Source: Bacteroidota bacterium
Lineage (GTDB): Bacteria; Bacteroidota; Bacteroidia; UKL13-3
Length of the DNA: 44,809 nucleotides
Assembly (NCBI GenBank): GCA_947507965.1
Contig: CANNQU010000023.1
Location: 1 to 44,809 of the forward strand
Reading direction: 5' to 3'
Shown here: in pieces, positions 2,394-23,865 of the stretch
Numbering within the stretch: the stretch's first letter is position 1
Layout of the letters: every line of letters starts with the position of its first letter
The notes under the pieces: model-generated
Databases searched by the model: none
What the model saw: only the letters and a program-made list of their open reading frames with translations
Told to the model about the DNA's origin: nothing
Program-made: the position numbers and the translations under genes

Positions 2394-3812
2394 ATGGAAA
2401 AATATTATTTAGGAATAGATTTAGGCTCTACCACCTCCAAAGCTGTTATCATTAACTCAAGCGATAAAATTATTGGAAGAGGTATTACCAATACTCGTGC
2501 AAATTACAAGGTAGCCGCCGACATTGCAAGGGAAGAAGCCATTTACGATGCGCGCTTTACCCTACTCGCCAACAAAATAAAGGCTGATATGGAATCGAAG
2601 CCCGAATTTAAGAAATATATGGAAGACGTGAGAACGGTGTTCCAATATCAGCAGTTCAAACGAAGGATGGAAAGTTTGGAGAAGATGTTACGTAAAACAG
2701 TGTCGGAGTTTACGCATGCCAACAAAGATGCCGTCGCCGAAAAACTAAGTGCCTTACTGGAAAATATTCGTCCTCAAATTAGAAACGAGTTTGTATATGG
2801 TAATTTAGGCTCGAAAAATCAGTTCTTCCGAGATATTGTAAGCGAAAAATACAATATAGAAGTAGCCCTTGTCGGTAAAGAATTTTATGAGCCACTCATG
2901 CTTGCTTTCGATAAAAGCATTACTCCTGTAGAAAATGAGATGGTTCAATATAATTTCAAAGAATTGGTACTCGAGTCGATGACGCTATTAGAGGAAAAAT
3001 ATCAAGGCTTAGCCGAACAACAAGAAGATGGGAGCAAAGAAGATTGGTATTATGCAGAACTGAATGCCTTAAAAAACAACTATAAAAATGTAGAGATTTC
3101 ACTTCGCGGGCATATCGAAGCCATTGCCAGTGATGAAATAAATATTGCAAAAATGGTAGGTACCGGCTACGGAAGGGCCTTGTTACCTTTTCCAGAAGAC
3201 TGCATAAAATCAGAAATCTTATGTCATGCCTTCGGTGCTCACGCACTTTTTCCGAACACGCGGACCGTGCTCGATATTGGAGGGCAAGATACCAAAGCAA
3301 TACAAGTAGATAGCCATGGATTGGTAACCAGCTTTCACATGAACGACCGATGTGCGGCTGGTTGTGGGCGCTATTTAGGATATATCGCCGACGAATTTGG
3401 AATCTCCCTCAACGAACTGGGCCCTGAAGCCAATAAGGCGACCAAGGAAACCGTAATTTGTTCTACCTGCACCGTATTTGCCGGGGCTGAAGTAAAAGAA
3501 CTTTTACATAGTGGGGAAGAACGGCCTAACATCTTAGCCGGCCTCCACAAAGCCATTGTTCAACGTGCCATGTCGTTAATAGCTCGTTCGGGTGGTGTTA
3601 AAAACGAATTCACCTTTACGGGAGGTGTTGCTCGTAATGAGGCCGTTTTAAGATACGTAAAACAAATGGTGGTTGATTCGTATGGGGAAGTGACCATGAA
3701 TATCCACACCGATTCCATTTTTATGGGAGCCTTAGGAGGCGCCATGTTTGCCAGAAGAAACATCAGTGCAGACTTACCTATTGCTAAGAAAACAAAAGAA
3801 GTAGAAGTATAA
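2394..3812 (+). CDS. bcrA: Benzoyl-CoA reductase ATPase subunit A
   Basis: This is the larger of the two ATP-hydrolysing electron-activation subunits. It takes electrons from reduced ferredoxin and, driven by ATP, passes them to BcrBC. It is an ASKHA-fold ATPase with phosphate-1 motif LGIDLGSTTSK (about residues 6-16), DIGGQDTK near residue 293, and Cys in NDRCAAGCGRY (C320) and ICSTCTVF (C356/C359). These hold the [4Fe-4S] cluster shared with BcrD. At 472 residues it carries a long insertion between the phosphate-1 and DIGG motifs, which BcrD lacks. Large BcrA/BadF proteins of the Thauera/Rhodopseudomonas type have this insertion; the Azoarcus BzdP/BzdQ pair does not. That makes this a Bcr-type rather than Bzd-type enzyme. 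Confidence 0.93.
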   Translation: MEKYYLGIDLGSTTSKAVIINSSDKIIGRGITNTRANYKVAADIAREEAIYDARFTLLANKIKADMESKPEFKKYMEDVRTVFQYQQFKRRMESLEKMLRKTVSEFTHANKDAVAEKLSALLENIRPQIRNEFVYGNLGSKNQFFRDIVSEKYNIEVALVGKEFYEPLMLAFDKSITPVENEMVQYNFKELVLESMTLLEEKYQGLAEQQEDGSKEDWYYAELNALKNNYKNVEISLRGHIEAIASDEINIAKMVGTGYGRALLPFPEDCIKSEILCHAFGAHALFPNTRTVLDIGGQDTKAIQVDSHGLVTSFHMNDRCAAGCGRYLGYIADEFGISLNELGPEANKATKETVICSTCTVFAGAEVKELLHSGEERPNILAGLHKAIVQRAMSLIARSGGVKNEFTFTGGVARNEAVLRYVKQMVVDSYGEVTMNIHTDSIFMGALGGAMFARRNISADLPIAKKTKEVEV

Positions 3813-3844: not shown

Positions 3845-4702
3845 ATGGGAAACACAATATATACAATGGGCGTTGATGTTGGCGGAAGCTATGTAAAAGC
3901 GGTGCTAATGACGTATGATAAAGCAACCGGAGATCATAAATTAATCGACAAACAAACCGAGAAGATACGAAAACGAAATCCTAAAGATGTGGTTGTAGAG
4001 GCGGTGGACACCCTCTTAGAACGAAATAATTTAGACTACGATAACGATATCGCCTATCTTGCTTCAACGGGCGAAGGAGAAATGGTAGAGCGGAAAACAG
4101 GACATTTCTATAGTATGACCTCACATGCACGGGGAGGGATTTTCTTTGTACCACAAGCTAAAACTGTGGTAGATATGGGTGGGCTTTATGTGCGAGCCAT
4201 CAAGGTTGATTCGAGAGGGAAAGTGTTAGATTACAAGATGACCGGACAGTGTGCCTCCGGCTCAGGGCAGTTCATTGAAAACATTTCAAGGTACCTAGGT
4301 TTAGCTATCGATGAAGTGGGAGCCATCTCCCTCAAAGCTGATAATCCTGAAGTGCCCTCTGGCATTTGTGCCGTGTTGGCTGAAACGGATGTTATCAACC
4401 TCGTTTCAAAAGGACTCTCCACTCCAAATATTGTAAAGGGAATAAATATCTCCATCTCGCAACGCATCATAAAATTATTAGGCTCCCTTCGAACCGAATC
4501 GCCGGTGGCACTGGTGGGTGGAATGGGGATGAATTCGGGAATGATACAGGCTATTGAAGAACTGGCCACCGAAAACAAGAAAGGAGAATTGGAATTTATA
4601 TCTCACCCCGATGCCATTTACTCGGGAGCCATTGGCGCCGCACTTTGGGGAGGTTTTAGATATTATAAATTAAAAGAGAAGGAGGTAGAAGCTGTTGCTT
4701 AG
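3845..4702 (+). CDS. bcrD: Benzoyl-CoA reductase ATPase subunit D
   Basis: This is the smaller ATPase subunit (285 residues; known BcrD is about 280). It pairs with BcrA around a shared [4Fe-4S] cluster in ATP-driven electron transfer to BcrBC. ASKHA motifs are MGVDVGGSYVK at the N terminus, DMGGLYVRAI in place of DIGGQDTK, TGQCASGSGQF (C136) and SGICAVLAETD (C175). The missing acidic/Gln residue in DMGGLYVR is usual for BcrD-type subunits and not a sign of decay. It lies 32 bp downstream of bcrA and closes the bcrCBAD set. A 78-bp gap follows before the acyl-CoA synthetase. Confidence 0.93.
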   Translation: MGNTIYTMGVDVGGSYVKAVLMTYDKATGDHKLIDKQTEKIRKRNPKDVVVEAVDTLLERNNLDYDNDIAYLASTGEGEMVERKTGHFYSMTSHARGGIFFVPQAKTVVDMGGLYVRAIKVDSRGKVLDYKMTGQCASGSGQFIENISRYLGLAIDEVGAISLKADNPEVPSGICAVLAETDVINLVSKGLSTPNIVKGINISISQRIIKLLGSLRTESPVALVGGMGMNSGMIQAIEELATENKKGELEFISHPDAIYSGAIGAALWGGFRYYKLKEKEVEAVA

Positions 4703-4780: not shown

Positions 4781-6955
4781 ATGAATTCTCAAACCTCGAC
4801 AGGCACGATGCTAGATAATACGAAGGCACATGAACTAGATTCGCTTTTTAAGCCCCGGTCTATTGCCATCATAGGAGCATCATCCAAAGAATTATCGATA
4901 GGAAACGTCATTATTAAAAACTTGGTTCATTATAATTATACCGGTAAAATTTACCCCATCAACTTAAAAGAACCTGAAATCAGGAACATCAAAGCGTATC
5001 CTACCATCTTTGATGTTCCGGATGAGATAGATCTTGCTCATATTATTATCCCCAGCAAATTTGTACCACAAATCATTGAAGACTGTGGAAAAAAGGGGAT
5101 CAAATCGGTAATTATTAATTCAGCCGGATTTAGTGAAATGGGTGAAGAAGGCATGGCCTTACAAGATGCGTTTTTGGCGAAAGCGAAAGAATATGGTGTA
5201 CGAATCTTCGGCCCTAATTGCCAAGGAATCATCAATGCTGACCCACAATTCAATGCCTATTGCGATTTCACCTTTACCTTTCCAAAGCCAGGCTCCATAT
5301 CCATCGTCGCATTAAGTGGCGGGGTGGGTGCCTTTATCATGCAAAGCTTATTTGACCTTGACATTGGCATGAGAATGTATGCATCGAATGGTAATGCCTG
5401 CGACATTTCTATTTCAGAGGTGGTTACCTATTATGGTGAAGATGAAGGCACCAAGGCCATAATTTTATATACAGAAGGGTTTCGTAACCCAAGAGAATTT
5501 ATGGACGTAGCCCAAAAGGTTGCAAAGCAAAAGCCAATACTCGCCATGAAATCGGGGCGAACAGAGGAAGGGGCTAAAGCTGCGGCTTCACATACCGGAT
5601 CGCTTGCCGGAGTGGATATCGCTACCGAATTAATATTTGAAAAAATAGGAATACTCTCTTTTGATAATGAAGAGGAAATGTGTCAGGCCGCCATGGCTTT
5701 TTCTACTCAACCCATTCCAAGAGGCAACAAAGTAGGTATCATTACCAATACCGGAGGGCCGGCTGTAATAGCCACCGATGAGTTAATTCGTTGCGGCTTG
5801 CAACTACCCACCCTGTCGGCAAGAGCAATTCAAACACTCAAAGAAACACAACTTCCCGAGGCCTCCATAGGAAACCCGATTGATGTTGTTGCTACGGGAG
5901 GCGCCATTCATTTTAAGAGCGCATTGGATGTATTGATGGATGAAGAACAAATAGATTGCATCTATATCAATTTTGTAACAGCCCCATTCACCGATACCGA
6001 TGAGGTAGCTCGCGCTATTGTAGCGGTAAATAACATGAAACGCAAACCGATCGTTTGTAATTTTATGACCAACATGAGCATGGAGCGCTATCAAGCCACC
6101 GCCAAAATATTGAAAGACGGAGGAGTGCCTTGTTATAGCTTTCCAACCACGGCGGCGAAAGCCTTGGGGTCATTATATAAGTTTCATAAAATTCAATCGC
6201 GAAACATTGGCGAGACAAAAATATTTCCAGATATAGACAGAGCAAAAGTTGAAGAAATAATAGCAAGAACCGGAATAAATAAACACGATACCAATGGAAA
6301 TCTTTCTTCCAGTGGAGATGGAGCCTTCCTGCCATCGGCTGATGTTTATGAAATACTTGCTGCCTATGGCATCGCGGTAGCCGATTGGCGAATAGTAAGC
6401 ACCACCGATGAAGCGCTGAAAGCTGCTGTGGAAATAGGATTCCCGGTGGTAATAAAAGCAGAAGCAAAAGCCATCGTACATAAAAGTGATATGGGTGGTG
6501 TGGCGATCAACTTAAAAAATGAGGAGGAGGTAACTGCTGCTATTGGCAAGATGAAGTTAAAATTGAGTTCTTCTACAGACCTTCAGTTTTTAGTTCAAAA
6601 GTTTTTACCGGGAGGTAGAGAATTAATTGTAGGTGTGGCAGCACAACCCGACTTGGAACCCCTGATCATGTTCGGACTTGGGGGAGTATTTGTAGAGGTT
6701 TTAAAAGATGTGGTATTTAAACTATCTCCCCTTACCGAGCTAGAGGCCAATGAAATGTTAACCTCTATTAAATCTTCAAAATTATTAGATGGGGTAAGAG
6801 GCCAAAAAGGAGTAAATAAAGCGAGTGTGATTGATATTATTTTACGCGTTTCGCAGTTGGTGAACGACTTCCCTCAAATACAAGAAATGGATTTAAACCC
6901 CATCATGGCCTTTGAAGATAGAACCATTGCGGTAGATGCCCGAATTAAAATTTAA
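4781..6955 (+). CDS. ADP-forming acyl-CoA synthetase (acetate-CoA ligase, ADP-forming type)
   Basis: This 724-residue protein has the alpha-beta fused layout of NDP-forming acyl-CoA synthetases. A CoA-binding Rossmann domain starts at FKPRSIAIIGAS, then come succinyl-CoA-ligase-like domains, with an ATP-grasp domain over about the last 220 residues. The phospho-histidine loop AASHTGSLAG is present (H271), as is the ATP-grasp motif VHKSDMGGVAINL. The family interconverts acyl-CoA + ADP + Pi and acid + CoA + ATP. Its place between bcrD and the second BcrB-like gene suggests a substrate from the benzoyl-CoA pathway. It could recover ATP from a short-chain or dicarboxylic acyl-CoA, or activate an aromatic acid at the cost of one ATP to ADP. 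The substrate cannot be read from the sequence. No AMP-forming benzoate-CoA ligase is in the window. Confidence 0.88.
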   Translation: MNSQTSTGTMLDNTKAHELDSLFKPRSIAIIGASSKELSIGNVIIKNLVHYNYTGKIYPINLKEPEIRNIKAYPTIFDVPDEIDLAHIIIPSKFVPQIIEDCGKKGIKSVIINSAGFSEMGEEGMALQDAFLAKAKEYGVRIFGPNCQGIINADPQFNAYCDFTFTFPKPGSISIVALSGGVGAFIMQSLFDLDIGMRMYASNGNACDISISEVVTYYGEDEGTKAIILYTEGFRNPREFMDVAQKVAKQKPILAMKSGRTEEGAKAAASHTGSLAGVDIATELIFEKIGILSFDNEEEMCQAAMAFSTQPIPRGNKVGIITNTGGPAVIATDELIRCGLQLPTLSARAIQTLKETQLPEASIGNPIDVVATGGAIHFKSALDVLMDEEQIDCIYINFVTAPFTDTDEVARAIVAVNNMKRKPIVCNFMTNMSMERYQATAKILKDGGVPCYSFPTTAAKALGSLYKFHKIQSRNIGETKIFPDIDRAKVEEIIARTGINKHDTNGNLSSSGDGAFLPSADVYEILAAYGIAVADWRIVSTTDEALKAAVEIGFPVVIKAEAKAIVHKSDMGGVAINLKNEEEVTAAIGKMKLKLSSSTDLQFLVQKFLPGGRELIVGVAAQPDLEPLIMFGLGGVFVEVLKDVVFKLSPLTELEANEMLTSIKSSKLLDGVRGQKGVNKASVIDIILRVSQLVNDFPQIQEMDLNPIMAFEDRTIAVDARIKI

Positions 6956-6965
6956 TTATTGAATA

Positions 6966-8183
6966 ATGTATAAGATACAAAGTGCGAAATTAATGAAGGA
7001 GGTAATGGGGAATTACTTTCTTGGAATGAAAGATACTTCCAAAAAGATAGCTTGGTGCACCAGTGTTGGCCCGGCCGAGTTGTTACGTTCCTTTGGCTTT
7101 GAAGTTCATTTCCCTGAAAATCACGGAGCCCTATTAGGTGCAACGCGCACTGCCGGAGACTTAATACCGGAGTCGGCCAAGTTGGGGTACTCTAATGATA
7201 TCTGTTCTTACCTAACGGCGGATATCGGTTCTTATCTTAAAAACGAAACCCCGTTAAGAGAGCACTACGGATTAAACGGTGCGCCAAAACCCGATTTAAT
7301 AGTTTATAACACCAATCAATGCCGTGAAGTTCAGGACTGGTTTACCTACTTCGCAAGAGAATTAAACTGCCCTGTTTTTGGGATCATGCCTCCGCGTCAT
7401 CTGGATGAAATAACCCAAGAAGCGATCGATGATGTGGCCACACAGTTTAAGAATTTGATCCCCCTTTGTGAGCAAGTAACGGGAATAAAATTTGATTTGG
7501 GTCGTTTTGCTGAGACACTAAAATTAAGCAAAGAAGCCACCGACCTATGGAAAAAAGTATTATGGACGGCCAGCTCATCGCCGGCACCGCTTAGCTTTTT
7601 TGATGCCACCATTCACATGGGACCTATCGTGGTATTGCGTGGCACCCAGATAGCGAAAGATTATTATACCACACTCTTAAAAGAACTCGAACAAAACGTT
7701 GCCAACAAAATTGGTTTTTTAGAAAAAGAAAAATGCCGTCTTTATTGGGATGGAATGCCCATTTGGGGTAAATTAAGATCCTTATCCGACTTATTCATTC
7801 AAAATAATGCCGCTGTGGTGGCTTCCACCTATTGCAATAGCTGGGTGTTTGATGCCTTCGACGAAAACCATCCCTTTGAATCGTCGGCAAAAGCCTATAC
7901 CGAAATATTTATCAACCGAAGCGAAGAAGCGAAACAACGATTATTGACCGATTTAGTTCACTTATTTAGAATCGATGGAGTAATATTTCACGATGCGAAA
8001 ACATGTGCCAATAATTCGAATTCGCGTTTTGGCATGCCCCAAAGAATCACTGAAACCTTAGGTATTCCTACCTTAGTGATTGAAGGCGACCTATGCGATT
8101 TACGGTTTTATTCGGAAGGCCAAAGTATCACTAAAATTGAAACTTTTATAGAGCAAATTGAAAGTGCAAAGGTAGCATGCTAA
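6966..8183 (+). CDS. Second BcrB/HgdB-like subunit (2-hydroxyacyl-CoA dehydratase D-component family)
   Basis: This 405-residue protein is from the same family as BcrB and BcrC but is a separate paralogue. The N-terminal half reads like a BcrB/BzdO/HgdB subunit (PAELLRSFGFEVHFPENHG, GYSNDICSYLTADIG, YNTNQCREVQDW). C80, C119 and C347 (KTCANNSNS) are likely [4Fe-4S] ligands; C31, C135 and C377 are further cysteines. No second D-component gene lies beside it, whereas known enzymes use two. It would have to homodimerise, borrow BcrB or BcrC, or use an unlinked partner. It starts 11 bp after the acyl-CoA synthetase and precedes the small Cys protein and the ATPase fusion. The reaction is unknown: an ATP-dependent reduction or dehydration of an acyl-CoA is the family expectation. 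Confidence 0.85.
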   Translation: MYKIQSAKLMKEVMGNYFLGMKDTSKKIAWCTSVGPAELLRSFGFEVHFPENHGALLGATRTAGDLIPESAKLGYSNDICSYLTADIGSYLKNETPLREHYGLNGAPKPDLIVYNTNQCREVQDWFTYFARELNCPVFGIMPPRHLDEITQEAIDDVATQFKNLIPLCEQVTGIKFDLGRFAETLKLSKEATDLWKKVLWTASSSPAPLSFFDATIHMGPIVVLRGTQIAKDYYTTLLKELEQNVANKIGFLEKEKCRLYWDGMPIWGKLRSLSDLFIQNNAAVVASTYCNSWVFDAFDENHPFESSAKAYTEIFINRSEEAKQRLLTDLVHLFRIDGVIFHDAKTCANNSNSRFGMPQRITETLGIPTLVIEGDLCDLRFYSEGQSITKIETFIEQIESAKVAC

Positions 8184-8196
8184 AAAATAATATACT

Positions 8197-8670
8197 ATGA
8201 GTACAAACCAGATCGTTGAAAATAAAATATATAAACTCTCTACAGGAGAGGAAGTAGCTGCTGAAGCTTTGGAAGGCTTAATTGAAAAAACCTGCCACTA
8301 TATTCGACACGCGGTGGTTGGACAAAATCACGACGATACACCTGTTGCGTTTATCTTTCCCAACAGACAGCTTTTTACACACCCCGATTACCAAGTAACC
8401 CCAATGGAAGGATGCTTTTGCCCTAGAAGTTTAGATGAATTGGGCCGATGTCTTAGCGGATGTTTGAAACTAGTAAACCTTCAAATGGATCAAGAGACCG
8501 ACGGAATCAAAGAGGCTGCCATTCTCAACACCGAGAATCACGATACGGAAAAACCAAAACTATCATACCAGGAAATCATTGAAAAATACAGAACATTGCT
8601 CCATCACACCTTTGGAAATACGGTACCTGATGAAGAAGACATCTATTATGTAAAAGGGCTCAACCACTAA
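8197..8670 (+). CDS. Small Cys-containing protein of unknown function
   Basis: I do not recognise a family for this 157-residue protein. The central block VAFIFPNRQLF is followed by CFCPRSLDELGRCLSGC, which places C73, C75, C85 and C89 close together; C33 is further upstream. The four clustered cysteines could bind metal or an FeS cluster, but the spacing is no standard ferredoxin motif. There is no signal peptide or membrane segment, so it should be cytoplasmic. It lies 13 bp after the BcrB-like gene and 22 bp before the dehydrogenase-ATPase fusion, so it is very likely co-expressed with both. A partner or electron-transfer subunit is inference only. Confidence 0.75.
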   Translation: MSTNQIVENKIYKLSTGEEVAAEALEGLIEKTCHYIRHAVVGQNHDDTPVAFIFPNRQLFTHPDYQVTPMEGCFCPRSLDELGRCLSGCLKLVNLQMDQETDGIKEAAILNTENHDTEKPKLSYQEIIEKYRTLLHHTFGNTVPDEEDIYYVKGLNH

Positions 8671-8692: not shown

Positions 8693-10543
8693 ATGGAAAG
8701 TCAAAAAAAAATAAAGGTTGGCGTTGTCGGCATGGGGCCGGTAGGCATGATTTTGGCCGTCAAGTTGAAAGAGGCGGGATGCGAAGTGGCCATTTGCGAT
8801 AAAGATGATTTCAAACTCAAGAAAATAAAAGAGAAAGGCATCGTGCTGGAAAACATGTTTGAATCAACGACTACCTTTGAAAATGTATTTGATTCCATTG
8901 TGGACATGCGGAATCTGGATTTAGATTATCTTATCTTCTCATTAAAATCATACCAAACACTCGGAGCGGTAAAAGAAGCAGAAGTTATTAACTCGGATAA
9001 ATTAATACTGGTGGCCGCACAAAATGGCATCGATACCGAGGGAATCATCTCTTCGGTATTTGGTGAGTCGAAGACCTTACGTATGGTAATTAATTATGCA
9101 GGTAATATGGCTTCGCCTAATACCGTTAAAGTGTCTTTCTTCACACCTCCTAATTATATTGGCTCCATCGACGATAATCGAACAAAAGAAGCTCAAAAAC
9201 TTGCCGACGTATTAAACCGTATTGGCTTTTTAACAACAAAACTCGATTCGTTTGAATTGGTGAAAAGTGTTTGGGAAAAAACGATACTGAATTCTTCCTT
9301 GAGTGCCCTATGTGGGGTTGGCCGGTTAACCATGGCAGAGGCTATGGCCGATGAAGAAACCATTGAATTAATAGAACAAATTATCAATGAAGGAATAAAA
9401 GTAGCTGAAAAAGAAAAGATTCGTTTTCCGGATGATTTCGTTAGGAAGTGTTTGCAGTATCTAAAAAAAGGAGGTGATCACTTTCCTTCCTTAGCCGTCG
9501 ATTTAATGAGTAGCCGACAAACGGAAATAGATTATTTTAATGGGAAGATCGTTCAGTATGGGAAAAAACATTATGTGAAAACGTCGTTGAATTTGGCCTT
9601 CACCAACATGGTAAAAGCCATGACCAATAAAACCGTAATGAATAGATACGTTGGCCCTGAAGGGGAGCTCACGAAACGAATTTTAAACAAAGGACTCATT
9701 GACAAAAACCGCTCTTCCATATTCTACAAAGAGCAGGATTACTTTCTAGGCATCGATTTAGGATCGGCATTTACGAAGTTCATTATTATCGACGATGGCG
9801 GGGTGGTTGTATTTCGTTACATTCTACAAACCATGAATAAAGATCGTCATGCCATGAAAAATATCCTTCAAGCCATTCGTGCAACCTTTAATATAAAATT
9901 CAGCTGCGCTACCGGGTATGGACGAAAACACTTCACCGAGACCGATATTATAAAGACGGAGATAAATTGCGCAGCAGCGGGTGTTGCCGTGTTTTTTGAT
10001 GGAGAGAAAAACATTATTGATATTGGAGGGGAGGACATAAAAATAATCCATAGTAATAGCGATAATCAGGTCGCTAATTTTTATATGAATGATAAATGTG
10101 CTGCCGGAACCGGAGCCTTTTTAGAGGAGATTTCGGAACGTGCGGAAATAAATATTTCCGATATGAGTAGCCTCGCTGCTCATTCCGAATTTGACAAAGA
10201 GCTCAATAGCTTCTGTACCGTTTTTGCAAAAACAGAAATCATGAGCTGGGTATTCGATGGCATGCCTAAACCCGATATCGCTAGAGGAATATATATATCA
10301 ATAGCAAATAAAGTAGCCAAAATGCGTTTGTTTCCTGAAATTCCTACGCTGATGATTGGTGGCGTTATTGCACATCACCCTTACTTAAGTGTTATCCTCA
10401 GTCAGAAATTTAAAAAAGAAATAAAAACCATCGACCACCCTCAATATATTGTTTCTTATGGTGCCTCCATGATTGCGAAGCAACAATGGGAATTACAAAA
10501 CCCAAAAGAAGTAATTATTAAAGAACTCATACATTCAGCTTAA
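8693..10543 (+). CDS. Fusion: ketopantoate-reductase-like dehydrogenase + BcrD/HgdC-type ATPase activator
   Basis: This is one 616-residue chain with two complete domains. Residues 1 to about 310 resemble the ApbA/PanE ketopantoate reductase family. They contain the nucleotide motif GMGPVG (13-18), an acidic CDKDD after the second strand (suggesting NAD(H) rather than NADP(H)), W194-E-K196 with N200 matching the catalytic Lys/Asn, and TEIDYFNG (277-284). Residues from about 350 are an ASKHA activator: GIDLGSAFTK (353 on), DIGGEDIKII (443 on), NDKCAAGTG (C469) and FCTVFAKTE (C508). Both cysteines needed for the dimer-bridging [4Fe-4S] cluster are kept. The frame is continuous with no internal start needed. 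It would couple a hydride-transfer module to ATP-driven one-electron activation, presumably serving the BcrB-like protein upstream. Function is inferred. Confidence 0.9.
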   Translation: MESQKKIKVGVVGMGPVGMILAVKLKEAGCEVAICDKDDFKLKKIKEKGIVLENMFESTTTFENVFDSIVDMRNLDLDYLIFSLKSYQTLGAVKEAEVINSDKLILVAAQNGIDTEGIISSVFGESKTLRMVINYAGNMASPNTVKVSFFTPPNYIGSIDDNRTKEAQKLADVLNRIGFLTTKLDSFELVKSVWEKTILNSSLSALCGVGRLTMAEAMADEETIELIEQIINEGIKVAEKEKIRFPDDFVRKCLQYLKKGGDHFPSLAVDLMSSRQTEIDYFNGKIVQYGKKHYVKTSLNLAFTNMVKAMTNKTVMNRYVGPEGELTKRILNKGLIDKNRSSIFYKEQDYFLGIDLGSAFTKFIIIDDGGVVVFRYILQTMNKDRHAMKNILQAIRATFNIKFSCATGYGRKHFTETDIIKTEINCAAAGVAVFFDGEKNIIDIGGEDIKIIHSNSDNQVANFYMNDKCAAGTGAFLEEISERAEINISDMSSLAAHSEFDKELNSFCTVFAKTEIMSWVFDGMPKPDIARGIYISIANKVAKMRLFPEIPTLMIGGVIAHHPYLSVILSQKFKKEIKTIDHPQYIVSYGASMIAKQQWELQNPKEVIIKELIHSA

Positions 10544-10545
10544 AA

Positions 10546-11808
10546 ATGAAATCATACCATAATAAAGAAAAAGGAATAGGAATATTGTTCGACGATATAT
10601 ACGTAGTAAACGGAGCACGCACCCCTTTTGGGAAATTTTGTGGCACGTTAGCTAACGTGTCACCTACCGATTTAGGCATATTTTCAAGTCGGGCAGCATT
10701 ACTTAAAGCCGGCGTTTCTGCCCTAGATATTGACCAGGCCATTATTGCCAATATTGGTCAAGCATCTGGTGACGCTTATTTTTTACCACGGCATATTGCC
10801 TTATACGCTGGCTTACCTACAACCGTGCCTTCGTTGATGGTGCAAAGAATATGTGCATCCGGTTTTGAAACGATGATTACGGCATCCGAGCAAATTACGC
10901 TTGGCAAAGCCGGCCTGGTTTTATGCTGTGGAACAGAAAATATGACCCTTGCACCAACCGTTAGCTTTGGCAACCGAATGGGATATGCGCTGGGACGACC
11001 GGTGTTTAAAGATATGTTATGGGAAGCCTTAGATGATACCGCTGCCGGCTACCCGATGGGATTCACGGCAGAAAATGTGGCCAAAAAACATAATCTCACC
11101 CGAGCCCAATGTGATGAATTTGCACTTACTTCATTTACACGGGCCGTGAATGCAAGAAATAACGAGGTTTTTAAAGAAGAGATAACACCTATTAATTCAA
11201 CCGTATTTGAAGCCGAAGGTTTAAAGCCCAGAAAAGTTAGACTATCGGGCGGGGTGAAAGATTTTATGGTAGATGAGCAGATACGCGAAACAACTATAGC
11301 GTCGCTGGGTAAATTAGCCACCGTGTTTTCTGAAGTGGGCGTACTCACTGCCGGTAACTGTAGCGGTATTGTTGATGGTTCGGCAGCAGCCATTATCGCT
11401 GATAAAAACACGATTGAATCGAAAAATTTGAAACCAATTGCAAAAATAATCGGCGGTGCTACCTGCGGAATCGACCCTAAATTGATGGGGTTGGGACCTG
11501 TGCCTGCCATTAAACTACTCCTTGAAATGACCGGATTAAGTATCGCCGATATTGGATTATTTGAAATTAATGAGGCCTTCTCGGCACAGGTTATCGGTTG
11601 CGAAATTGAGTTGGGAATCGATAGAGAAAAATTGAATGTAAATGGTGGCGCCATCGCTATTGGGCACCCACTTGCGGCAAGTGGACTACGATTGTCGTTA
11701 ACGATGATTAGAGAGATGAATTTGAGAAAAATAAAATATGGTATTGCTTCTGCGTGCATCGGTGGCGGACAGGGAACGGCCATTTTATTTGAAAATATAA
11801 ACCTATAA
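10546..11808 (+). CDS. Thiolase (acetyl-CoA C-acyltransferase)
   Basis: This is a thiolase-superfamily enzyme of 420 residues with all catalytic residues: C103 in QRICASGFE, NEAFSAQ, H374 in AIGHPLAASG and C404 in SACIGGGQG. It cleaves a 3-oxoacyl-CoA with CoA to release acetyl-CoA. In this setting the likely substrate is an intermediate below ring opening, such as 3-oxopimeloyl-CoA, but the sequence does not prove this. The ATG is 2 bp after the stop of the fusion gene. The roughly 15 residues ahead of the conserved VVNGARTPFG start are slightly longer than usual; no later start codon is available. Confidence 0.92.
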   Translation: MKSYHNKEKGIGILFDDIYVVNGARTPFGKFCGTLANVSPTDLGIFSSRAALLKAGVSALDIDQAIIANIGQASGDAYFLPRHIALYAGLPTTVPSLMVQRICASGFETMITASEQITLGKAGLVLCCGTENMTLAPTVSFGNRMGYALGRPVFKDMLWEALDDTAAGYPMGFTAENVAKKHNLTRAQCDEFALTSFTRAVNARNNEVFKEEITPINSTVFEAEGLKPRKVRLSGGVKDFMVDEQIRETTIASLGKLATVFSEVGVLTAGNCSGIVDGSAAAIIADKNTIESKNLKPIAKIIGGATCGIDPKLMGLGPVPAIKLLLEMTGLSIADIGLFEINEAFSAQVIGCEIELGIDREKLNVNGGAIAIGHPLAASGLRLSLTMIREMNLRKIKYGIASACIGGGQGTAILFENINL

Positions 11809-11822: not shown

Positions 11823-12878
11823 ATGAGCAAAATGCAACAATGGCAGATGACAGAATTAAAAACTGATTTCATATTGGTTGAATCTGAAATTCCAAAAATA
11901 AAAGAACATGAAGCACTGGTAAAAATTGCCGGTTGTGGGGTGTGCCATACCGATTTAAGTTTTTGGCACGATGGCGTGCGTACGAAGAAAGAGCTCCCTC
12001 TAACCTTAGGACATGAAATTAGTGGAACCGTAATAGAAGGCCCCGTAAATCTCATCGGCAAAAATGTAATTATTCCTGCCGTATTGCCTTGCGGCAATTG
12101 TGAGCTATGCGACAAAGGAAGAGGGAATATCTGTCAAAATCAACTCATGCCCGGAAACGATTTTCATGGAGGTTTCGCCTCTCATATCGTCGTGCCTTTT
12201 GAACACTTATGTGTAGTGCCCGATGCGGTGCTAACGAAATATTCCCTAGAACAACTTTCGGTTATTGCTGATGCCATTTCTACACCCTATCAGGTGATAA
12301 AAAAATCGGAAATAGAGCCAGGCGATTTAGCTATCGTTATTGGTGTTGGAGGCGTAGGCGTTTACGGTGCCTTAATCGCTAAAATAATGGGTGCAAAGGT
12401 TCTTGCCATCGATATCAGTGATGAGAAATTGAAGCTTGCTAAAAAGAATGGTATCGATGCCACCCTCAATTCAAAAGGATTGGATAGTAAAGAAATCAAG
12501 AGCCGAGTGAGAGAAATAGCGAAAGAATTAGGCGCACCAAAATTTGGTTGGAAGATATTTGAATTTTCGGGAACAGCACCCGGACAGGAACTAGCCTTTA
12601 ATTTAATCACCTTTACATCTACCTTGAGTATCGTTGGTTTCACGATGAATAAACTGGAAATACGATTAAGTAACCTCATGGCCTTCGATGCGAAACTTAT
12701 TGGTACTTGGGGCTGTAAGCCTGAATTGTATCCGGAAGTGATTGAATTAATAGCACGTGGTGAGTTAAAAATCCACGACTTTATCCAAACCTTTCCCATG
12801 TCGAAAATAAATGAGGTATTCAAAAATACCTTAGAGCATAAATACGACAAACGCTCCGTACTTGTATTCGATTTTTAA
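11823..12878 (+). CDS. had: 6-hydroxycyclohex-1-ene-1-carbonyl-CoA dehydrogenase
   Basis: This zinc-dependent medium-chain alcohol dehydrogenase oxidises 6-hydroxycyclohex-1-ene-1-carbonyl-CoA to the 6-oxo compound, the step after Dch. It has 351 residues. Catalytic zinc ligands are seen in GCGVCHTD (C41) and LGHEISG (H64); the structural zinc set is CGNCELCDKGRGNIC (C90, C93, C96, C104). The NAD site is GVGGVGVYG. The general ADH call is certain. The specific role follows from close resemblance to known Had enzymes and from lying 21 bp upstream of oah. Confidence 0.92.
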   Translation: MSKMQQWQMTELKTDFILVESEIPKIKEHEALVKIAGCGVCHTDLSFWHDGVRTKKELPLTLGHEISGTVIEGPVNLIGKNVIIPAVLPCGNCELCDKGRGNICQNQLMPGNDFHGGFASHIVVPFEHLCVVPDAVLTKYSLEQLSVIADAISTPYQVIKKSEIEPGDLAIVIGVGGVGVYGALIAKIMGAKVLAIDISDEKLKLAKKNGIDATLNSKGLDSKEIKSRVREIAKELGAPKFGWKIFEFSGTAPGQELAFNLITFTSTLSIVGFTMNKLEIRLSNLMAFDAKLIGTWGCKPELYPEVIELIARGELKIHDFIQTFPMSKINEVFKNTLEHKYDKRSVLVFDF

Positions 12879-12899
12879 TCTCACGCTAAAAAAAATATC

Positions 12900-14000
12900 A
12901 TGACAACATTAGTAAATCATAACCTCGTAGAACACCAATACACGGATATCTTGTTTGAAAAACGACCGTGTTTAAATTTTGATGGGGCACCCGTAGCCGA
13001 TCTATATAACGCCTGGATCATCCTGAATAATCCGAAACAATACAACTCCTACACCACTCAGGCAGTGAAAGAAATCATTCTTGCTTTTGGGGAGGCCTCG
13101 AATGACAGAAGTGTTGTTGCCGTAGTGTTTACCGGGGTGGAAGACAAAGCCTTCTGCACCGGAGGCAACACCAAAGAATATGCCGAATACTATGCAGGAA
13201 ATCCACAGGAATATTCGCAATACATGCGCTTGTTTAACGATATGGTAAGTGCCATTTTAAAATGTGAGAAACCCGTGATTTCACGAGTGAATGGAATGCG
13301 TATTGGCGGTGGACAAGAAATAGGAATGGCTTGCGATTTCACCGTAGCCTCCGATTTGGCACGCTTCGGACAGGCGGGGCCAAAACATGGAAGCGCTGCC
13401 ATTGGTGGTTCTACCGATTTCCTTCATCTTTATGTAGGTATCGAAAGGGCCATGAGTTCACTAACGCTCTGCGAACCCTGGACCGCCCATCAAGCCCTTC
13501 AGGTAGGTTTGATTACCGATATTGCACCGGCACTTAAAGTAGATGGTAAATTTATTCCCAATCCATTGGTGAATATCGCTACCTACGCAGATGCGTATGG
13601 GAGGATCATTTTTGGTGCGATGAAAACAGGTGAAGAACTTATCAAAGGAAAAGAGCTAATGGCTAAGGGAGAAGTCGATTTATCTAAATTAGACGACCTG
13701 GTGAATAAGCTAATTGCGAAATTATTACACACGTTCCCCAATTGTTTATCGAAGACCTTGACAGAGGTACGTAAGAAAAAACTGGAACATTGGGATAAAA
13801 ACAAAGAAAGCAGCAGAGAGTGGTTGGCTCTTAATATGACCACAGAAGCTAAAGCCGGATTCAAAGCCTTTAACGACGGGCCTAAAAACGACAGAGAAAT
13901 CGATTTCATTAAGCTTCGTCAACTTTTAGCTGATGGGAAAGAGTGGAATGACGAAATGCATCAGGCCATCTCGCCTCAATATAAAACTAAAACTCCTTAA
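12900..14000 (+). CDS. oah: 6-oxocyclohex-1-ene-1-carbonyl-CoA hydrolase (ring opening)
   Basis: This crotonase-superfamily hydrolase adds two waters to 6-oxocyclohex-1-ene-1-carbonyl-CoA and opens the ring to 3-hydroxypimeloyl-CoA. It is the product of the gene also called bamA, used as a functional marker for anaerobic aromatic degradation. At 366 residues it has the long form typical of Oah, longer than ordinary enoyl-CoA hydratases. Recognisable blocks are DLYNAWIILNNPKQYNSYTT, FCTGGNTKEYAEYYAGNP and NGMRIGGGQEIGMACDF. It is the last gene before a 110-bp break that separates the bcr-had-oah genes from the kor genes. Confidence 0.95.
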   Translation: MTTLVNHNLVEHQYTDILFEKRPCLNFDGAPVADLYNAWIILNNPKQYNSYTTQAVKEIILAFGEASNDRSVVAVVFTGVEDKAFCTGGNTKEYAEYYAGNPQEYSQYMRLFNDMVSAILKCEKPVISRVNGMRIGGGQEIGMACDFTVASDLARFGQAGPKHGSAAIGGSTDFLHLYVGIERAMSSLTLCEPWTAHQALQVGLITDIAPALKVDGKFIPNPLVNIATYADAYGRIIFGAMKTGEELIKGKELMAKGEVDLSKLDDLVNKLIAKLLHTFPNCLSKTLTEVRKKKLEHWDKNKESSREWLALNMTTEAKAGFKAFNDGPKNDREIDFIKLRQLLADGKEWNDEMHQAISPQYKTKTP

Positions 14001-14383: not shown

Positions 14384-15490
14384 ATGGAAGATATAAAGTT
14401 AATGAAGGGCAACGAAGCCATCGCTGAAGGGGTTATACGTGCCGGGTGCGACGGTTATTTCGGTTATCCTATAACGCCGCAGTCGGAAGTACTCGAGTAC
14501 TTAATGATGGCTCGAACGGAAGAACGAACAGGCATGGTAGTGCTGCAAGCCGAAAGTGAAATTGCCTCCATCCACATGGTATATGGTGGAGCCGCTTGTG
14601 GCAAGCGGGTAATGACCTCATCTTCGAGTCCAGGAATAAGTTTAATGCAAGAAGGAATATCATTTATGGCTGGAACCGAACTTCCTTGTTTGCTATTAAA
14701 TGTGGTGCGCGGTGGACCGGGCTTAGGCACCATCCAACCCTCTCAATCCGATTATTTTCAGGCCGTAAAAGGGGGTGGTCATGGCGATTATAAATTAATT
14801 GTTTTGGCTCCTGCCTCCGTTCAGGAAATGTACGACTTCGCAAAACTTGGTTTTGACCTTGCCTTCAAATACCGCATTCAGGTGATGGTATTATCTGATG
14901 GTGCCATAGGCCAAATGATGGAAAAAGTAGTACTCGACGAGCAGATACCTAGGCAAACGAACGAAGAGATCATAAAAAATCATCCTTGGGCAACTTCCGG
15001 AAAAACGCCCGACAGAGAACGCAATATTATTACTTCTCTTGACCTTGACCCGGTGAAACAGGAAAAAATAAATATTCATCTACAGGAAAAATTTAAACGA
15101 ATTACAGAGAATGAAGTACGTTTCGAAACGTTGATGTGTGATGATGTAGAGTACTTATTCGTGGCCTATGGGTCGAGTGCACGTGTATGCCAAAAGGCAA
15201 TACAGCTAGGAAGAGAAAAAGGACTAAAAGTTGGACTTCTTCGACCGATTACCCTATTCCCTTTCCCTTATGATGAAGTTGCTAAATTGGCGAAACAGGT
15301 GAAAGGCATTTTATGTGTGGAAATGAGTGCCGGACAAATGATCGAAGATGTACGCCTCGGTGCAAACGGCGCCGTAAAAGTAGAACACTTCGGAAGATTG
15401 GGCGGCATTATACCGGCACCCGATGAAGTGTTAAATAGAATGGAAGAAATTTTTATCAGCAAAAACAATTATGGAAGAGGAACTAACTAG
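14384..15490 (+). CDS. korA: 2-oxoglutarate (2-oxoacid):ferredoxin oxidoreductase alpha subunit
   Basis: This alpha (pyrimidine-binding plus domain II) subunit of a 2-oxoacid:ferredoxin oxidoreductase has 368 residues. The start LMKGNEAIAEGVIRAGCDGYFGYPITPQ-type block and the LLRPITLFPFPYDEV block near residue 285 are typical. It oxidises a 2-oxoacid with CoA to acyl-CoA + CO2 and reduces ferredoxin. In Thauera the KorAB enzyme next to bcr uses 2-oxoglutarate to recharge the ferredoxin for benzoyl-CoA reductase. Substrate choice among 2-oxoglutarate, pyruvate and branched 2-oxoacids cannot be fixed from sequence alone. The last 20 bp overlap korB. Confidence 0.88.
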   Translation: MEDIKLMKGNEAIAEGVIRAGCDGYFGYPITPQSEVLEYLMMARTEERTGMVVLQAESEIASIHMVYGGAACGKRVMTSSSSPGISLMQEGISFMAGTELPCLLLNVVRGGPGLGTIQPSQSDYFQAVKGGGHGDYKLIVLAPASVQEMYDFAKLGFDLAFKYRIQVMVLSDGAIGQMMEKVVLDEQIPRQTNEEIIKNHPWATSGKTPDRERNIITSLDLDPVKQEKINIHLQEKFKRITENEVRFETLMCDDVEYLFVAYGSSARVCQKAIQLGREKGLKVGLLRPITLFPFPYDEVAKLAKQVKGILCVEMSAGQMIEDVRLGANGAVKVEHFGRLGGIIPAPDEVLNRMEEIFISKNNYGRGTN

Positions 15491-16250
15491 AGAAAGTATT
15501 TGCCAGCAAGAGAATCTTGTTTATTCGAGAACTCCGTTGATGACCCCAAAGGCACTATCCTATTGCCCCGGATGTGGTCATGGCACTGCTCACCGGCTCA
15601 TTATGGAGGTGATTGAAGAAATGAATCTTCAATCGCAAACCATTGGTGTTGCACCAGTAGGGTGCTCCGTATTGGCCTACGATTTTTTAGATATCGATAT
15701 GCAACAGGCTGCACACGGAAGAGCTCCGGCAGTAGCCACAGGCATAAAACGATTACTACCCGATAAATTTGTGTTCACCTATCAAGGTGATGGCGACCTC
15801 GCTGCCATAGGCACCGGCGAAACCATACATGCTTGTAACCGTGGCGAAAATATTTGCATCTTCTTCGTAAATAATGGAATATATGGAATGACCGGTGGAC
15901 AGATGGCACCCACCACCCTGCCTAATATGAAAACGGCAACCTCGCCGTATGGAAGAGATGTGGTATCGATGGGCTATCCATTAAAAATTACGGAGATGAT
16001 TGCCATGCTTCCAGGCACTTGTTTTGTAACCCGCCAAAGTGTGCATACACCTGCTAATGTGCGCAAAACAAAAAAAGCAATTCAAAAAGCGGTACAGTGC
16101 CAGCTCGACAAAAAAGGATTGTCGTTTGTAGAGATTGTTTCCAACTGCAATTCGGGATGGAAAATGACACCGCTCGAATCGAATAAATGGATGGAAGAAA
16201 ATATGTTTCCTGTTTTCCCTCTCGGTGATATAAAAGTGCCTAAACCATAA
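15471..16250 (+). CDS. korB: 2-oxoacid:ferredoxin oxidoreductase beta subunit (TPP-binding)
   Basis: This is the thiamine-diphosphate subunit, 259 residues. It has YCPGCGHGTAHR near residue 30, GDGDLAAIGTGE and the Mg-binding NNGIYGMTGGQ. It partners KorA. The ATG at 15471 lies inside korA, giving a 20-bp overlap consistent with translational coupling. A 79-bp gap with a hairpin separates it from korC. Confidence 0.9.
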   Translation: MEEELTRESICQQENLVYSRTPLMTPKALSYCPGCGHGTAHRLIMEVIEEMNLQSQTIGVAPVGCSVLAYDFLDIDMQQAAHGRAPAVATGIKRLLPDKFVFTYQGDGDLAAIGTGETIHACNRGENICIFFVNNGIYGMTGGQMAPTTLPNMKTATSPYGRDVVSMGYPLKITEMIAMLPGTCFVTRQSVHTPANVRKTKKAIQKAVQCQLDKKGLSFVEIVSNCNSGWKMTPLESNKWMEENMFPVFPLGDIKVPKP

Positions 16251-16256
16251 AATATG

Positions 16257-16271
16257 GCGTAAAAATTACGC
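16257..16271. repeat. Short perfect hairpin between korB and korC
   Basis: GCGTAA, a 3-base loop and TTACGC form a perfect 6-bp stem 6 bp after the korB stop. The right arm TTACG can alternatively pair with CGTAA at about 16284-16288, so two mutually exclusive hairpins are possible. There is no T run, so it is not a classic terminator. Confidence 0.4.
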
Positions 16272-16329
16272 TACGAAACAGTACGTAAATAAATCATCAC
16301 CTAATTATTGAACTCATAAATTAAAAGAA

Positions 16330-16896
16330 ATGACTGAAGAAATAATCATCGCCGGATTTGGAGGACAAGGCGTTTTATCGATGGGAAAAATTCTCGCCTA
16401 TGCAGGCATGATGCAAAACAAGGAAGTGAGCTGGATGCCCTCCTATGGCCCTGAAATGCGTGGTGGCACAGCAAATGTAACCGTAATACTAAGCGATGAA
16501 CGAATTAGCTCCCCTATTTTAAATAAATTCGATACGGCTATCATTTTAAACCAGCAGTCGTTGGACAAATTTGAGAATTCAGTAAAAAAAGGAGGAATCA
16601 TGATTTACGATCCGAGTGGAATTACAAGTCATCCTACAAGAACTGATATTAATATTTATACCGTTGAAGCGGCCGATGAAGCAGCGAAACAAAATTTTAA
16701 GAAAGGTTTTAACATGTATATCCTAGGTGCTTTCCTCAAACTAAAGCCCGTAATTGAACCCGCCTTTATGCGCAAAGGACTTGAAAAGTCATTACCATCG
16801 AGGCATCATCATTTAATACCTGAAAATGAGAAAGCCATCGAACGTGGCAAAGAAATACTAAAAGCTAAATATATTATTTCAACCCCTCTGAACTAA
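16330..16896 (+). CDS. korC: 2-oxoacid:ferredoxin oxidoreductase gamma subunit
   Basis: This 188-residue protein is the gamma-domain subunit of four-subunit 2-oxoacid:ferredoxin oxidoreductases, opening with IIIAGFGGQGVLSMGKIL and containing the SYGPEMRGGTANVTV block. With korD, korA and korB it completes the enzyme expected to provide low-potential ferredoxin for the ATP-dependent reductase. It ends 2 bp before dch. Confidence 0.9.
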   Translation: MTEEIIIAGFGGQGVLSMGKILAYAGMMQNKEVSWMPSYGPEMRGGTANVTVILSDERISSPILNKFDTAIILNQQSLDKFENSVKKGGIMIYDPSGITSHPTRTDINIYTVEAADEAAKQNFKKGFNMYILGAFLKLKPVIEPAFMRKGLEKSLPSRHHHLIPENEKAIERGKEILKAKYIISTPLN

Positions 16897-16898: not shown

Positions 16899-17669
16899 AT
16901 GGCAAAAATAAATATTGAATACCTCTACAACGAAACGGTTGCTCGAATACTACTTGACGACGGCAAAGGCAATGTACTCGATCATCTGATGATGGAGGAG
17001 TTGCAAACCCTTTTAACCTCTTTTAAAAACCAACACAAAATAAAACTGATAACCTTTGAAGGCGAAGGCAAGCACTACTCTTTCGGAGCCAGTGTGGAAG
17101 AACATCAGAAAGATAGTGCCGGTGCGATGCTCCATAGTTTTCACAAATTATTTTACACTCTTAGAGATTTGGCTATTCCTACCTTATCAAAAATATCGGG
17201 TCAATGCCTTGGAGGAGGAATGGAGCTAGCCATCATGTGTAATTTTCTTTTTGCCGATAAGACGGCAAAATTAGGTCAGCCTGAAATTATTTTAGGCGTA
17301 TTCCCCCCGCCGGCTTCCATTATTTTACCCGAAAAAATTGGCCTGGCCCGTGCCGAAGACCTTTTATTAACTGGTCGAACCATCACTGCTGAGGAAGGTA
17401 AAACGATGGGGTTGCTAAATGAAGTTTTTGACGACAAAGAAGCCCTGGAAAAAGGAACACTAGAATGGATAGAAAAAAATATTATACCTAAAAGTGCATC
17501 TTCTCTTCGCTTTGGTGTGAGAGCCTCGCGAATGAAATTCAATCATATCCTCACCAGCTTTTTACCTCAGCTGGAAAGCTTGTATGTAAACCAGTTGATG
17601 GCAACCAAAGATGCCAATGAAGGGATCAACTCCTTTCTTGAGAAACGAAAGCCCGTGTGGGGAAGTTAA
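16899..17669 (+). CDS. dch: Cyclohexa-1,5-diene-1-carbonyl-CoA hydratase
   Basis: This 256-residue crotonase-family enzyme adds water to the dienoyl-CoA made by benzoyl-CoA reductase, giving 6-hydroxycyclohex-1-ene-1-carbonyl-CoA for Had. Characteristic blocks are HYSFGASVEEH (around residue 60), SGQCLGGGMELAIMCNF and LGQPEIILGVFPPPAS. Ordinary enoyl-CoA hydratases differ in the first of these. It sits 2 bp after korC, away from had and oah but on the same strand. It is the last gene of the catabolic block. Confidence 0.9.
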   Translation: MAKINIEYLYNETVARILLDDGKGNVLDHLMMEELQTLLTSFKNQHKIKLITFEGEGKHYSFGASVEEHQKDSAGAMLHSFHKLFYTLRDLAIPTLSKISGQCLGGGMELAIMCNFLFADKTAKLGQPEIILGVFPPPASIILPEKIGLARAEDLLLTGRTITAEEGKTMGLLNEVFDDKEALEKGTLEWIEKNIIPKSASSLRFGVRASRMKFNHILTSFLPQLESLYVNQLMATKDANEGINSFLEKRKPVWGS

Positions 17670-22923: not shown

Positions 22924-23865
22924 CTAAGCCAAACGCCCCTGCCAGGTATTTAATTCCTTCAATTTATGCTCTACTAAAGTAGCAAATTGATAATTTTTTA
23001 TGCCTTTCCAATGCGGCGCAATAAGCAACGCTTTGGGCGATTCGGAAATAAAACGCTGTACTACGATATCCGGACGTAGGTTTTCTAAAAACTCGATGAT
23101 GAGTGAAAGATACTCTTGTGAATCATAAAAAGTAAACGCTTCTTTATTTAGGTTATATTCTTTGGCAAGCTGCGTATGCTCCAGAATTTGCAGATGATGT
23201 ATCTTAAGAAACTTCAAGGGTAGAAGAGAAATATTTTGAGCGTGCGAAATTAAGTCGGACCTGCTTTCCCATGGAAAACCAAGAATGAGATGCCCGCCTA
23301 CAAGCAGGTTGTTTTTAGCTAGCCGCTCCACGGCTTCGATGGTTTCTGCATACGTATGGCAACGATTAATTTTTTGAAGTGTTACATCATTCGTCGATTC
23401 GATACCTAACTCTACAGATACATATTTTGTTTTTGAAATTTGATGCAGGTACTCCACTATTTCGTTAGAAATGCAATCGGGGCGAGTTCCAATAACTAAA
23501 CCTATCACATCCGGGAAACTCAAGGCTTCTTCGTAGGTTCTTATTAACTCTTCGTTATTGCTATAGGTATTGGTGTACGATTGAAAATAGGCCAGGTATT
23601 TTAAAGAAGTGTATTTTTTAGAGAAGAAATCAATTCCTTCTTTCAGTTGCTCTGTGACACTTTTTTTAGCATTGGCATAATCCGGCTTGATGGAGTTTAT
23701 ATTGCAGTAGGTGCAGCCTCCAAGGCCTTTGGTACCATCTCGGTTAGGGCAAGAATAACCGGTGTTGATGGATATTTTCTGAACCCGTTCGCCAAACGCA
23801 CTTCGAATGTACGTCGAATAACTATTGTATGCCGGCCGTGTTTCAATCAGTGGCTTATTCTTCAC
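22924..23865 (-). CDS. yhcC: YhcC-type radical SAM protein (TIGR01212 family)
   Basis: This 313-residue radical SAM protein resembles E. coli YhcC, whose reaction is poorly defined. The cluster region is GYSCPNRDGTKGLGGCTYC, with the CxxC end typical of this subfamily. FQSYTNTY, SVELGIES and GGHLILGFPWE are further family blocks. It overlaps the hemerythrin gene by 4 bp and is the last gene of the 4-hydroxybenzoyl-CoA reductase operon. Family members usually stand alone, so its role here is unclear. Confidence 0.87.
   Translation of the reverse strand: MKNKPLIETRPAYNSYSTYIRSAFGERVQKISINTGYSCPNRDGTKGLGGCTYCNINSIKPDYANAKKSVTEQLKEGIDFFSKKYTSLKYLAYFQSYTNTYSNNEELIRTYEEALSFPDVIGLVIGTRPDCISNEIVEYLHQISKTKYVSVELGIESTNDVTLQKINRCHTYAETIEAVERLAKNNLLVGGHLILGFPWESRSDLISHAQNISLLPLKFLKIHHLQILEHTQLAKEYNLNKEAFTFYDSQEYLSLIIEFLENLRPDIVVQRFISESPKALLIAPHWKGIKNYQFATLVEHKLKELNTWQGRLA

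Follow-up and report, generated by a model that had tools for sequence, protein, structure and literature searches.

A dehydrogenase-activase fusion gene conserved beside benzoyl-CoA reductase genes in Bacteroidota

Contig CANNQU010000023.1 of the Bacteroidota bacterium assembly GCA_947507965.1 (44,809 nucleotides; "the window" below is this whole stretch) carries a single gene that joins a dehydrogenase of the ketopantoate reductase (KPR) family to an activase of the type that serves 2-hydroxyacyl-coenzyme A (CoA) dehydratases. The activators HgdC (1hux) and HadI (4eht) as solved stand alone, whereas here the activase is fused behind the dehydrogenase and lies in a benzoyl-CoA reductase operon. 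The locus raises the questions of whether the fusion is genuine and what a dehydrogenase might do for such an activase. The gene and its parts, with sizes in amino acids (aa), are:

8693-10543, + strand: KPR-activase fusion gene (616 aa, ATG start, no internal stop)
8714-9628, + strand: N-terminal dehydrogenase half, KPR / D-2-hydroxyacid dehydrogenase type (residues 8-312; TIGR00745 above cut-off)
9629-9742, + strand: linker (residues 313-350; low confidence in the structure model)
9743-10474, + strand: C-terminal 2-hydroxyacyl-CoA dehydratase activase half (residues 351-594; TIGR00241 above cut-off)
10097-10099 and 10214-10216, + strand: codons of the activase cluster cysteines C469 and C508, respectively

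An earlier, sequence-only reading had described both halves as complete and the layout as genuine, and both statements hold: the gene has exactly the coordinates given, it has relatives in 80 other loci (below), and the KPR half scores 153.9 bits with TIGR00745 (curated cut-off 141.35) and the activase half 183.6 bits with TIGR00241 (cut-off 125.4). Pfam ApbA, ApbA_C and BcrAD_BadFG are each above cut-off as well. The residues named by that reading are all present, namely the GxGxxG nucleotide site (G13/G15/G18), the acidic D36, W194-x-K196...N200, EIDYFNG (TEIDYFNG at 277-284), C469 and C508, and the ASKHA-type activase motifs are intact. The nearest PDB sequences to the KPR half are 2ew2 and 3wfi, the latter titled D-mandelate dehydrogenase, and the top Foldseek match is 5x20_B, a D-mandelate dehydrogenase with NADH (TMt 0.87). 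KPR-family D-mandelate (D-2-hydroxyacid) dehydrogenases (3wfi, 5x20, 8wl1 and the putative 2ew2) have the same fold, catalytic residues and acidic NAD-type residue, but the solved ones are about 310 aa long, have no activase and are about 25% identical to the KPR half. The activase half is nearest in sequence to HgdC (1hux, E 1.5e-37) and HadI (4eht, E 3.3e-37), which share its ATPase motifs and both cluster cysteines; its top Foldseek matches are MbdQ (9gai_D), HadI and HgdC (TMt 0.83). It falls far short of the BcrA and BcrD equivalogs (TIGR02259, 91.9 bits against a cut-off of 578; TIGR02261, 62.9 against 312.85), and the operon carries its own BcrA and BcrD, and by sequence it lies closer to the HgdC/HadI activators than to the earlier label of a "benzoyl-CoA-reductase type" activator. 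A model of the monomer, built from 37 aligned sequences, has a mean predicted local distance difference test score (pLDDT) of 84.9 and a predicted template modelling score of 0.54, and consists of two domains whose relative placement is not fixed; pLDDT is below 50 at residues 313-325 of the linker, with block means of 43, 50 and 59 across residues 311-340.

The fusion gene is real and not the product of a sequencing or assembly join. Of 114 relatives found by scanning named genome contigs, the best 80 were kept and make up the 80 loci discussed here; many of these are cut by contig ends, and 44 are at least 21 kb long. A further genome with a relative, G113, consists of a single contig, which counts against an assembly join, and together these relatives exclude the accidental joining of two genes that the sequence-only reading had named among its refuting findings. 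Among 58 related genomes searched (the window's own included) 13 matched, 10 with a full-length protein. Open reading frame (ORF) calling missed the fusion in L071, L073, L075 and L086, and tblastn recovers all four. Two of the 80 relatives have an in-frame stop, in both cases near the 3' end of the matched stretch (residue 479 of 488 in L083 and 513 of 598 in L086); L082 and L083 are partial relatives at contig ends. The set includes some redundancy: L119 and L120 are near copies, L088 shares a genome with G048, and L090 with G041. By record title, where binning errors are possible, the 80 loci are mostly from Bacteroidetes or groups within them, and the other titles are Ignavibacteriae, Chlorobiota, Calditrichota, KSB1, Marinimicrobia, Thermoanaerobaculia and one Competibacteraceae. 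None of 271 matching plasmid records contains 80% of the fusion at a single site.

When the window protein is aligned with its 80 relatives (81 rows; counts refer to rows with a residue at the position), the Rossmann GxGxxG and the catalytic Lys, Asn, Ser and Glu of the KPR half, whose roles are assigned after E. coli KPR, are invariant in the 77-81 rows concerned: N111 is kept in 80/80, and K196, N200, S266 and E278 each in 81/81. The activase cysteines are equally constant (C469 81/81, C508 80/80), and at position 36 an acidic residue, D or E, stands in 65 of 80 rows and V or I in the other 15. No description of a dehydrogenase-activase fusion was found in open-licence papers among the matches listed, in agreement with the statement of novelty made from the sequence. 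The fusion is a conserved arrangement of known enzyme families.

The fusion lies within the following run of genes, all on the + strand:

25-1050, + strand: BcrC-like benzoyl-CoA reductase subunit (TIGR02263, 357.4 bits from profile position 52, below the cut-off of 421.15)
1086-2375, + strand: BcrB (TIGR02260, 640.8 bits, above cut-off)
2394-3812, + strand: BcrA (TIGR02259, 412.2 bits, below the cut-off of 578)
3845-4702, + strand: BcrD (TIGR02261, 310.7 bits, just below the cut-off of 312.85)
4781-6955, + strand: ADP-forming acyl-CoA ligase (replaces the AMP-forming ligase found at the same place in other loci)
6966-8183, + strand: HadB-like orphan alpha-type dehydratase subunit (405 aa; PF06050)
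8197-8670, + strand: 157-aa protein, the detached C-terminal domain of an AMP-forming CoA ligase
10546-11808, + strand: thiolase (TIGR01930 above cut-off; begins 2 bases past the fusion stop)
11823-12878, + strand: 6-hydroxycyclohex-1-ene-1-carbonyl-CoA dehydrogenase, Had (TIGR03201 above cut-off)
12900-14000, + strand: 6-oxocyclohex-1-ene-1-carbonyl-CoA hydrolase, Oah (TIGR03200 above cut-off)
14384-16896, + strand: 2-oxoacid:ferredoxin oxidoreductase, three genes (14384-15490, 15471-16250, 16330-16896; the first above the cut-off of subfamily PRK07119)
16899-17669, + strand: cyclohexa-1,5-dienecarbonyl-CoA hydratase-like, Dch (TIGR03189, 237 bits, below the cut-off of 292.5)

The BcrC-like gene has its N-terminus cut by the contig start, and its frame is open to contig base 1. 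The oxidoreductase likely reduces ferredoxin. By tblastn the same neighbours recur across the 80 loci: the HadB-like gene in 77, a match to the 157-aa protein in 73, BcrD in 67 (42 of the 44 loci of at least 21 kb), BcrA and thiolase in 64 each, Oah in 63, Had in 60, BcrB in 58, and BcrC and Dch in 54 each, where the counts for thiolase, Oah, Dch and the oxidoreductase (Kor) include weak paralogue matches of 20-35% identity. Class I benzoyl-CoA reductases (BcrCBAD, MbdONPQ, BzdNOPQ) belong to the same BCR/HAD family and here share an operon with the fusion and the HadB-like gene, which are additional to a complete BcrCBAD set. L095 has an MbdO-type reductase (530.6 bits to 9g87_A) and yet the same module, which therefore accompanies different class I reductase types. 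We note that on the contig of L110 (G041:C42:35435-39762) Bcr genes are accompanied by a second HGD-D pair with two activase-like matches behind it, which is perhaps a second reductase.

Family membership and gene order point to a general scheme that we consider somewhat better than an even proposition. The KPR half, judging by its residues and fold, would reduce a 2-oxo acid with NADH to an (R)-2-hydroxy acid, which the neighbouring AMP- or ADP-forming ligase would convert to the 2-hydroxyacyl-CoA. The activase half, as is usual in its family, would be a homodimer with a bridging [4Fe-4S] cluster. Reduced ferredoxin would supply this homodimer with an electron, to be driven at the expense of ATP into the HadB-like protein's own [4Fe-4S] cluster, and the HadB-like protein would then remove water by way of a ketyl radical, yielding a 2-enoyl-CoA. 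In such a scheme the fusion would keep substrate supply and activation together, and no direct electron link between the halves would be needed. Of the two roles that the sequence-only reading had offered for the dehydrogenase, making the substrate of the activated partner is the better supported.

LdhA-HadAIBC and FldABC/FldI are examples of Stickland systems. These proceed in the same way, from a 2-hydroxyacid dehydrogenase through CoA activation to a dehydratase with its activase, according to the available text of PMC11574389. They use a CoA transferase and an alpha/beta dehydratase, whereas the window has a ligase, one HGD-D subunit and benzoyl-CoA genes.

The likeliest substrate would be an aromatic 2-oxo acid (phenylpyruvate or 4-hydroxyphenylpyruvate), which would lead through cinnamoyl- or coumaroyl-CoA to (4-hydroxy)benzoyl-CoA; this is a tentative choice that we hold to be possible but not probable. 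It is favoured because of the D-mandelate-dehydrogenase-like fold, the benzoyl-CoA gene neighbours and a 4-hydroxybenzoyl-CoA-reductase-like gene elsewhere in the window:

25329-28112, - strand: 4-hydroxybenzoyl-CoA-reductase-like Mo enzyme, FeS and Mo subunits in one chain (TIGR03194, 808.5 bits, below 994.55; TIGR03195, 201.7 bits, below 404.55)
24397-25332, - strand: FAD-type subunit of the same enzyme

Maturation genes, XdhC-like (28100-28927) and MocA-like (28924-29517), stand beside it in the same minus-strand group (24397-29517), and a tRNA-modification radical SAM protein of the MnmL/YtqA family (above cut-off) is encoded nearby at 22924-23865, also on the minus strand. A gene of this 4-hydroxybenzoyl-CoA-reductase-like (Hcr-like) kind was found at 802 bits or more in 10 of 11 genomes (the eleventh, G012, has fragments), in 8 of the 11 on the contig of the fusion or of its separate counterparts. 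A route from phenylpyruvate through phenyllactoyl-CoA and cinnamoyl-CoA to benzoyl-CoA, with the dehydratase unassigned, has been proposed for an anaerobic benzene degrader in the available text of PMC13416013.

Not all organisms have the two halves in one chain. Searches with the HadB-like protein (hits in 7 of 97 and 14 of 150 genomes), plus genome G348, led to 13 loci whose operon encodes KPR and activase by two separate genes. In eight they lie side by side behind HadB, in L116, L129 and L130 they have other orders, and in L108 (from a single-contig genome) and L114 4-hydroxybenzoyl-CoA-reductase-like genes stand between them. The separate KPR proteins keep N111, K196, N200 and E278 in 14/14, with S266 replaced by Thr in 3/14, and by aligned columns the separate activases have both cluster cysteines in 14/14; the residue-pattern test missed one pattern in 12 of these 14 activases since adjacent residues differ. 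An obligatory covalent linkage of the halves is ruled out by the 13 two-gene loci. Because the halves occur separately in the same operons, they are therefore best seen as separable enzymes of one pathway and not as an electron wire. The other role suggested earlier, a covalent hydride input in which the KPR half feeds NADH electrons to the activase cluster, has covalent proximity alone in its favour, and to our knowledge KPR enzymes transfer hydride and have no flavin, metal or one-electron cofactor that could give single low-potential electrons. With no such cofactor, with separate versions in existence and with no fixed domain arrangement in the model, we reject it as the activase's electron input and regard it as extremely improbable.

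The low-confidence linker that joins the halves, and the fact that fusion is not obligatory, would also suit a KPR half that is non-catalytic in the pathway and acts as a regulatory NAD(H) sensor or a mere tether. Its catalytic residues are nevertheless invariant in 80-81 rows of the fusion alignment, and four of them in every separate KPR protein, and we give such a role little credence.

The fusion probably arose twice from neighbouring genes. A tree of 49 HadB rows (33 fused, 16 split) requires three label changes, of which the starred branches force two, and under midpoint rooting its deepest rows are split; among its labels L112 is called split although neither half is visible on its short contig, and only one half, standing alone, is seen in each of L111 and L115. 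The KPR and activase trees (28 rows) likewise require three changes each. A single fused clade is ruled out by an approximately unbiased (AU) test on 30 rows (17 fused, 13 split; L112 is absent from it), with a lnL difference of 243.9 and p-AU of 4.5e-47. The gap between two fixed motifs in 84 aligned fusions is 41-54 residues in 80 and 16 residues in the other four, whose junctions read KKK-M-G-V in three cases and KKK-M-G-Q in one, with the junction methionine at about the place where separate activases such as those of L124 and L126 begin. It is the rejection of a single clade together with these two linker and junction types that suggests two events. A single early fusion with later fissions may instead have occurred, and the change counts cannot separate gain from loss.

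The presumed target of the activase, the HadB-like protein, matches 3o3m_A at E 8e-50 in sequence, and its model (mean pLDDT 85.1) fits best to 3o3m_C, which we take as the HadB alpha chain (Z 46.8, root-mean-square deviation 2.0, 393 residues aligned). The other VIA Z scores are 43.6 for BzdO, 40.5 for MbdO, 34.0 for the double-cubane protein and 32.1 for HadC (3o3n_B). With the NCBIfam HadB equivalog it scores 211.8 bits against a cut-off of 750, and it is therefore not that enzyme's equivalog. Residues C80, C119 and C347 align with HadB cysteines, are kept in 78/78 and are likely the cluster ligands; in BzdO the equivalent cluster is held by three cysteines and a water, according to the available text of PMC11971306. 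Two further cysteines are invariant, C31 (76/76) and C290 (78/78), and the split rows examined have both as well. In L117, where HadB has a HadC-like gene next to it, the HadB residues at these positions are valine and threonine, and BcrB and MbdO-type rows have cysteine at neither aligned position. C290 is the clearer mark of the two because PDB MbdO aligns a cysteine to C31 in a pairwise alignment. A stretch of L107 that contains neither the fusion nor benzoyl-CoA genes also has a HadB-like gene (12723-13922), 65% identical to the window's.

Several points weigh against the scheme or its aromatic version. Described 2-hydroxyacyl-CoA dehydratases are alpha/beta enzymes in the available text of PMC11574389, and no beta (HadC) subunit gene is present in the window genome, which is 99.93% complete and has BcrB, BcrC and the HadB-like protein as its HGD-D proteins. 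The KPR half shares only about 25% identity with its closest relatives of solved structure, and no ORF like it was found beside the dehydratase genes in the stretches of two amino-acid fermenters, Acetoanaerobium and Fusobacterium. The 11 genomes of the Hcr-like search were picked for having the module, none of them has a match above the curated cut-off, and 5 of the 14 control genomes match the Hcr family as well; as far as the fetched stretches extend, an XO-family gene occurs in 16 of the 80 loci (12 of the 44 long ones). Finally, the thiolase and the other genes are explained by benzoyl-CoA breakdown, and so nothing in the operon is specific to cinnamoyl-CoA.

The missing beta subunit is the rule, because most genomes checked have three HGD-D proteins only: exactly three matches were found for 20 of 26 genome handles (24 distinct genomes) and for 13 of 15, where in G466 and G561, of the 15, the other two HGD-D proteins probably form a different pair, judged by score and position. 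The HadB-like protein thus has no beta partner as a rule, unless BcrC is shared, and it may pair with BcrC. Both this missing subunit and the tight linkage to ring reduction genes would suit a stoichiometric ATP-dependent reductase made of the HadB-like protein and the activase half, a third kind beside benzoyl-CoA reductase and the double-cubane proteins, with the KPR half acting on a neighbouring 2-oxo acid intermediate. The extra C31 and C290, absent from the heterodimeric HadB of L117 and from BcrB rows, fit such a reductase too. The double-cubane cluster protein and its reductase (6eno, 7yyl) share with the module a single HGD-D-type subunit served by an activase. The HadB-like protein is, however, nearest to HadB in both sequence and fold, with a lower Z for BzdO and a much lower one for the double-cubane protein, and the double-cubane model NF040772 gives it 53.2 bits, far below the cut-off of 350. 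We consider a reductase of this kind unlikely.

Across the 80 loci the ligase is AMP-forming in 41 and ADP-forming, as in the window, in 30. The ADP-forming type and the adjacent 2-oxoacid:ferredoxin oxidoreductase could together serve a 2-hydroxyglutarate shunt, in which the HadB-like protein would add water to ring-derived glutaconyl-CoA, the ligase would free the product from CoA and the KPR half would oxidise it to 2-oxoglutarate, with which the oxidoreductase would reduce ferredoxin for benzoyl-CoA reductase. Another type of this oxidoreductase is found in 11 further loci (L090 and L110 being one genome), but genes close to the window's occur in only 3 of the 80, and the more frequent AMP-forming ligase would not run toward release. 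The preference of the nearest dehydrogenases for bulky or aromatic side chains also counts against the shunt, and we think it quite improbable.

The 157-aa protein was followed in 87 rows that match either it or the L108 ligase, with unrelated ligases outside the set. In 54 rows the match forms the C-terminus of a roughly 580-aa AMP-forming ligase, and in the other 33 it is a protein by itself; C33, C73, C85 and C89 are invariant (87/87) and C75 is present in 81/87. Loci such as L034, L041 and L095 carry the C-x-C...C-x3-C motif at the C-terminus of their AMP-forming ligase. A search with the whole ligase in 247 genomes at E 1e-50 gave one close relative (60%) and three distant ones, in which the match stops at residue 467-473, before most of the C-terminal domain. 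The domain persists as its own gene where an ADP-forming ligase has replaced the body, which suggests that it has a function of its own, and its cysteines would suit an Fe-S or zinc site. That it universally replaces the missing beta subunit is doubtful because L115, L116 and L129, deep loci with HadB-like genes, show neither domain nor motif in the stretches examined.

In the most far-reaching reading, the module would be a new kind of one-subunit ATP-activated radical acyl-CoA enzyme, in which a homodimeric HadB-like protein has an altered cluster, with two extra cysteines near the active site, in place of the beta-subunit cluster, and is served by a split-off cysteine-rich ligase domain and a dehydrogenase-fused activase; this would form an undescribed anaerobic route from aromatic 2-oxo acids to benzoyl-CoA. 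We offer this full version as a possibility that is less likely than not and more open to doubt than the general scheme.

The fusion belongs to a conserved module of anaerobic aromatic metabolism that is found in Bacteroidota, most of them uncultured, and also in several further phyla. The joining of dehydrogenase and activase, probably more than once, hints at the substrate type of an orphan radical dehydratase. The module may hold a greater surprise in this orphan subunit, with its pair of additional cysteines, and in the detached cysteine-rich ligase domain next to it. If the HadB-like enzyme indeed works unaided by a beta partner, it could serve to probe how much of the BCR/HAD machinery ATP-driven radical chemistry requires.

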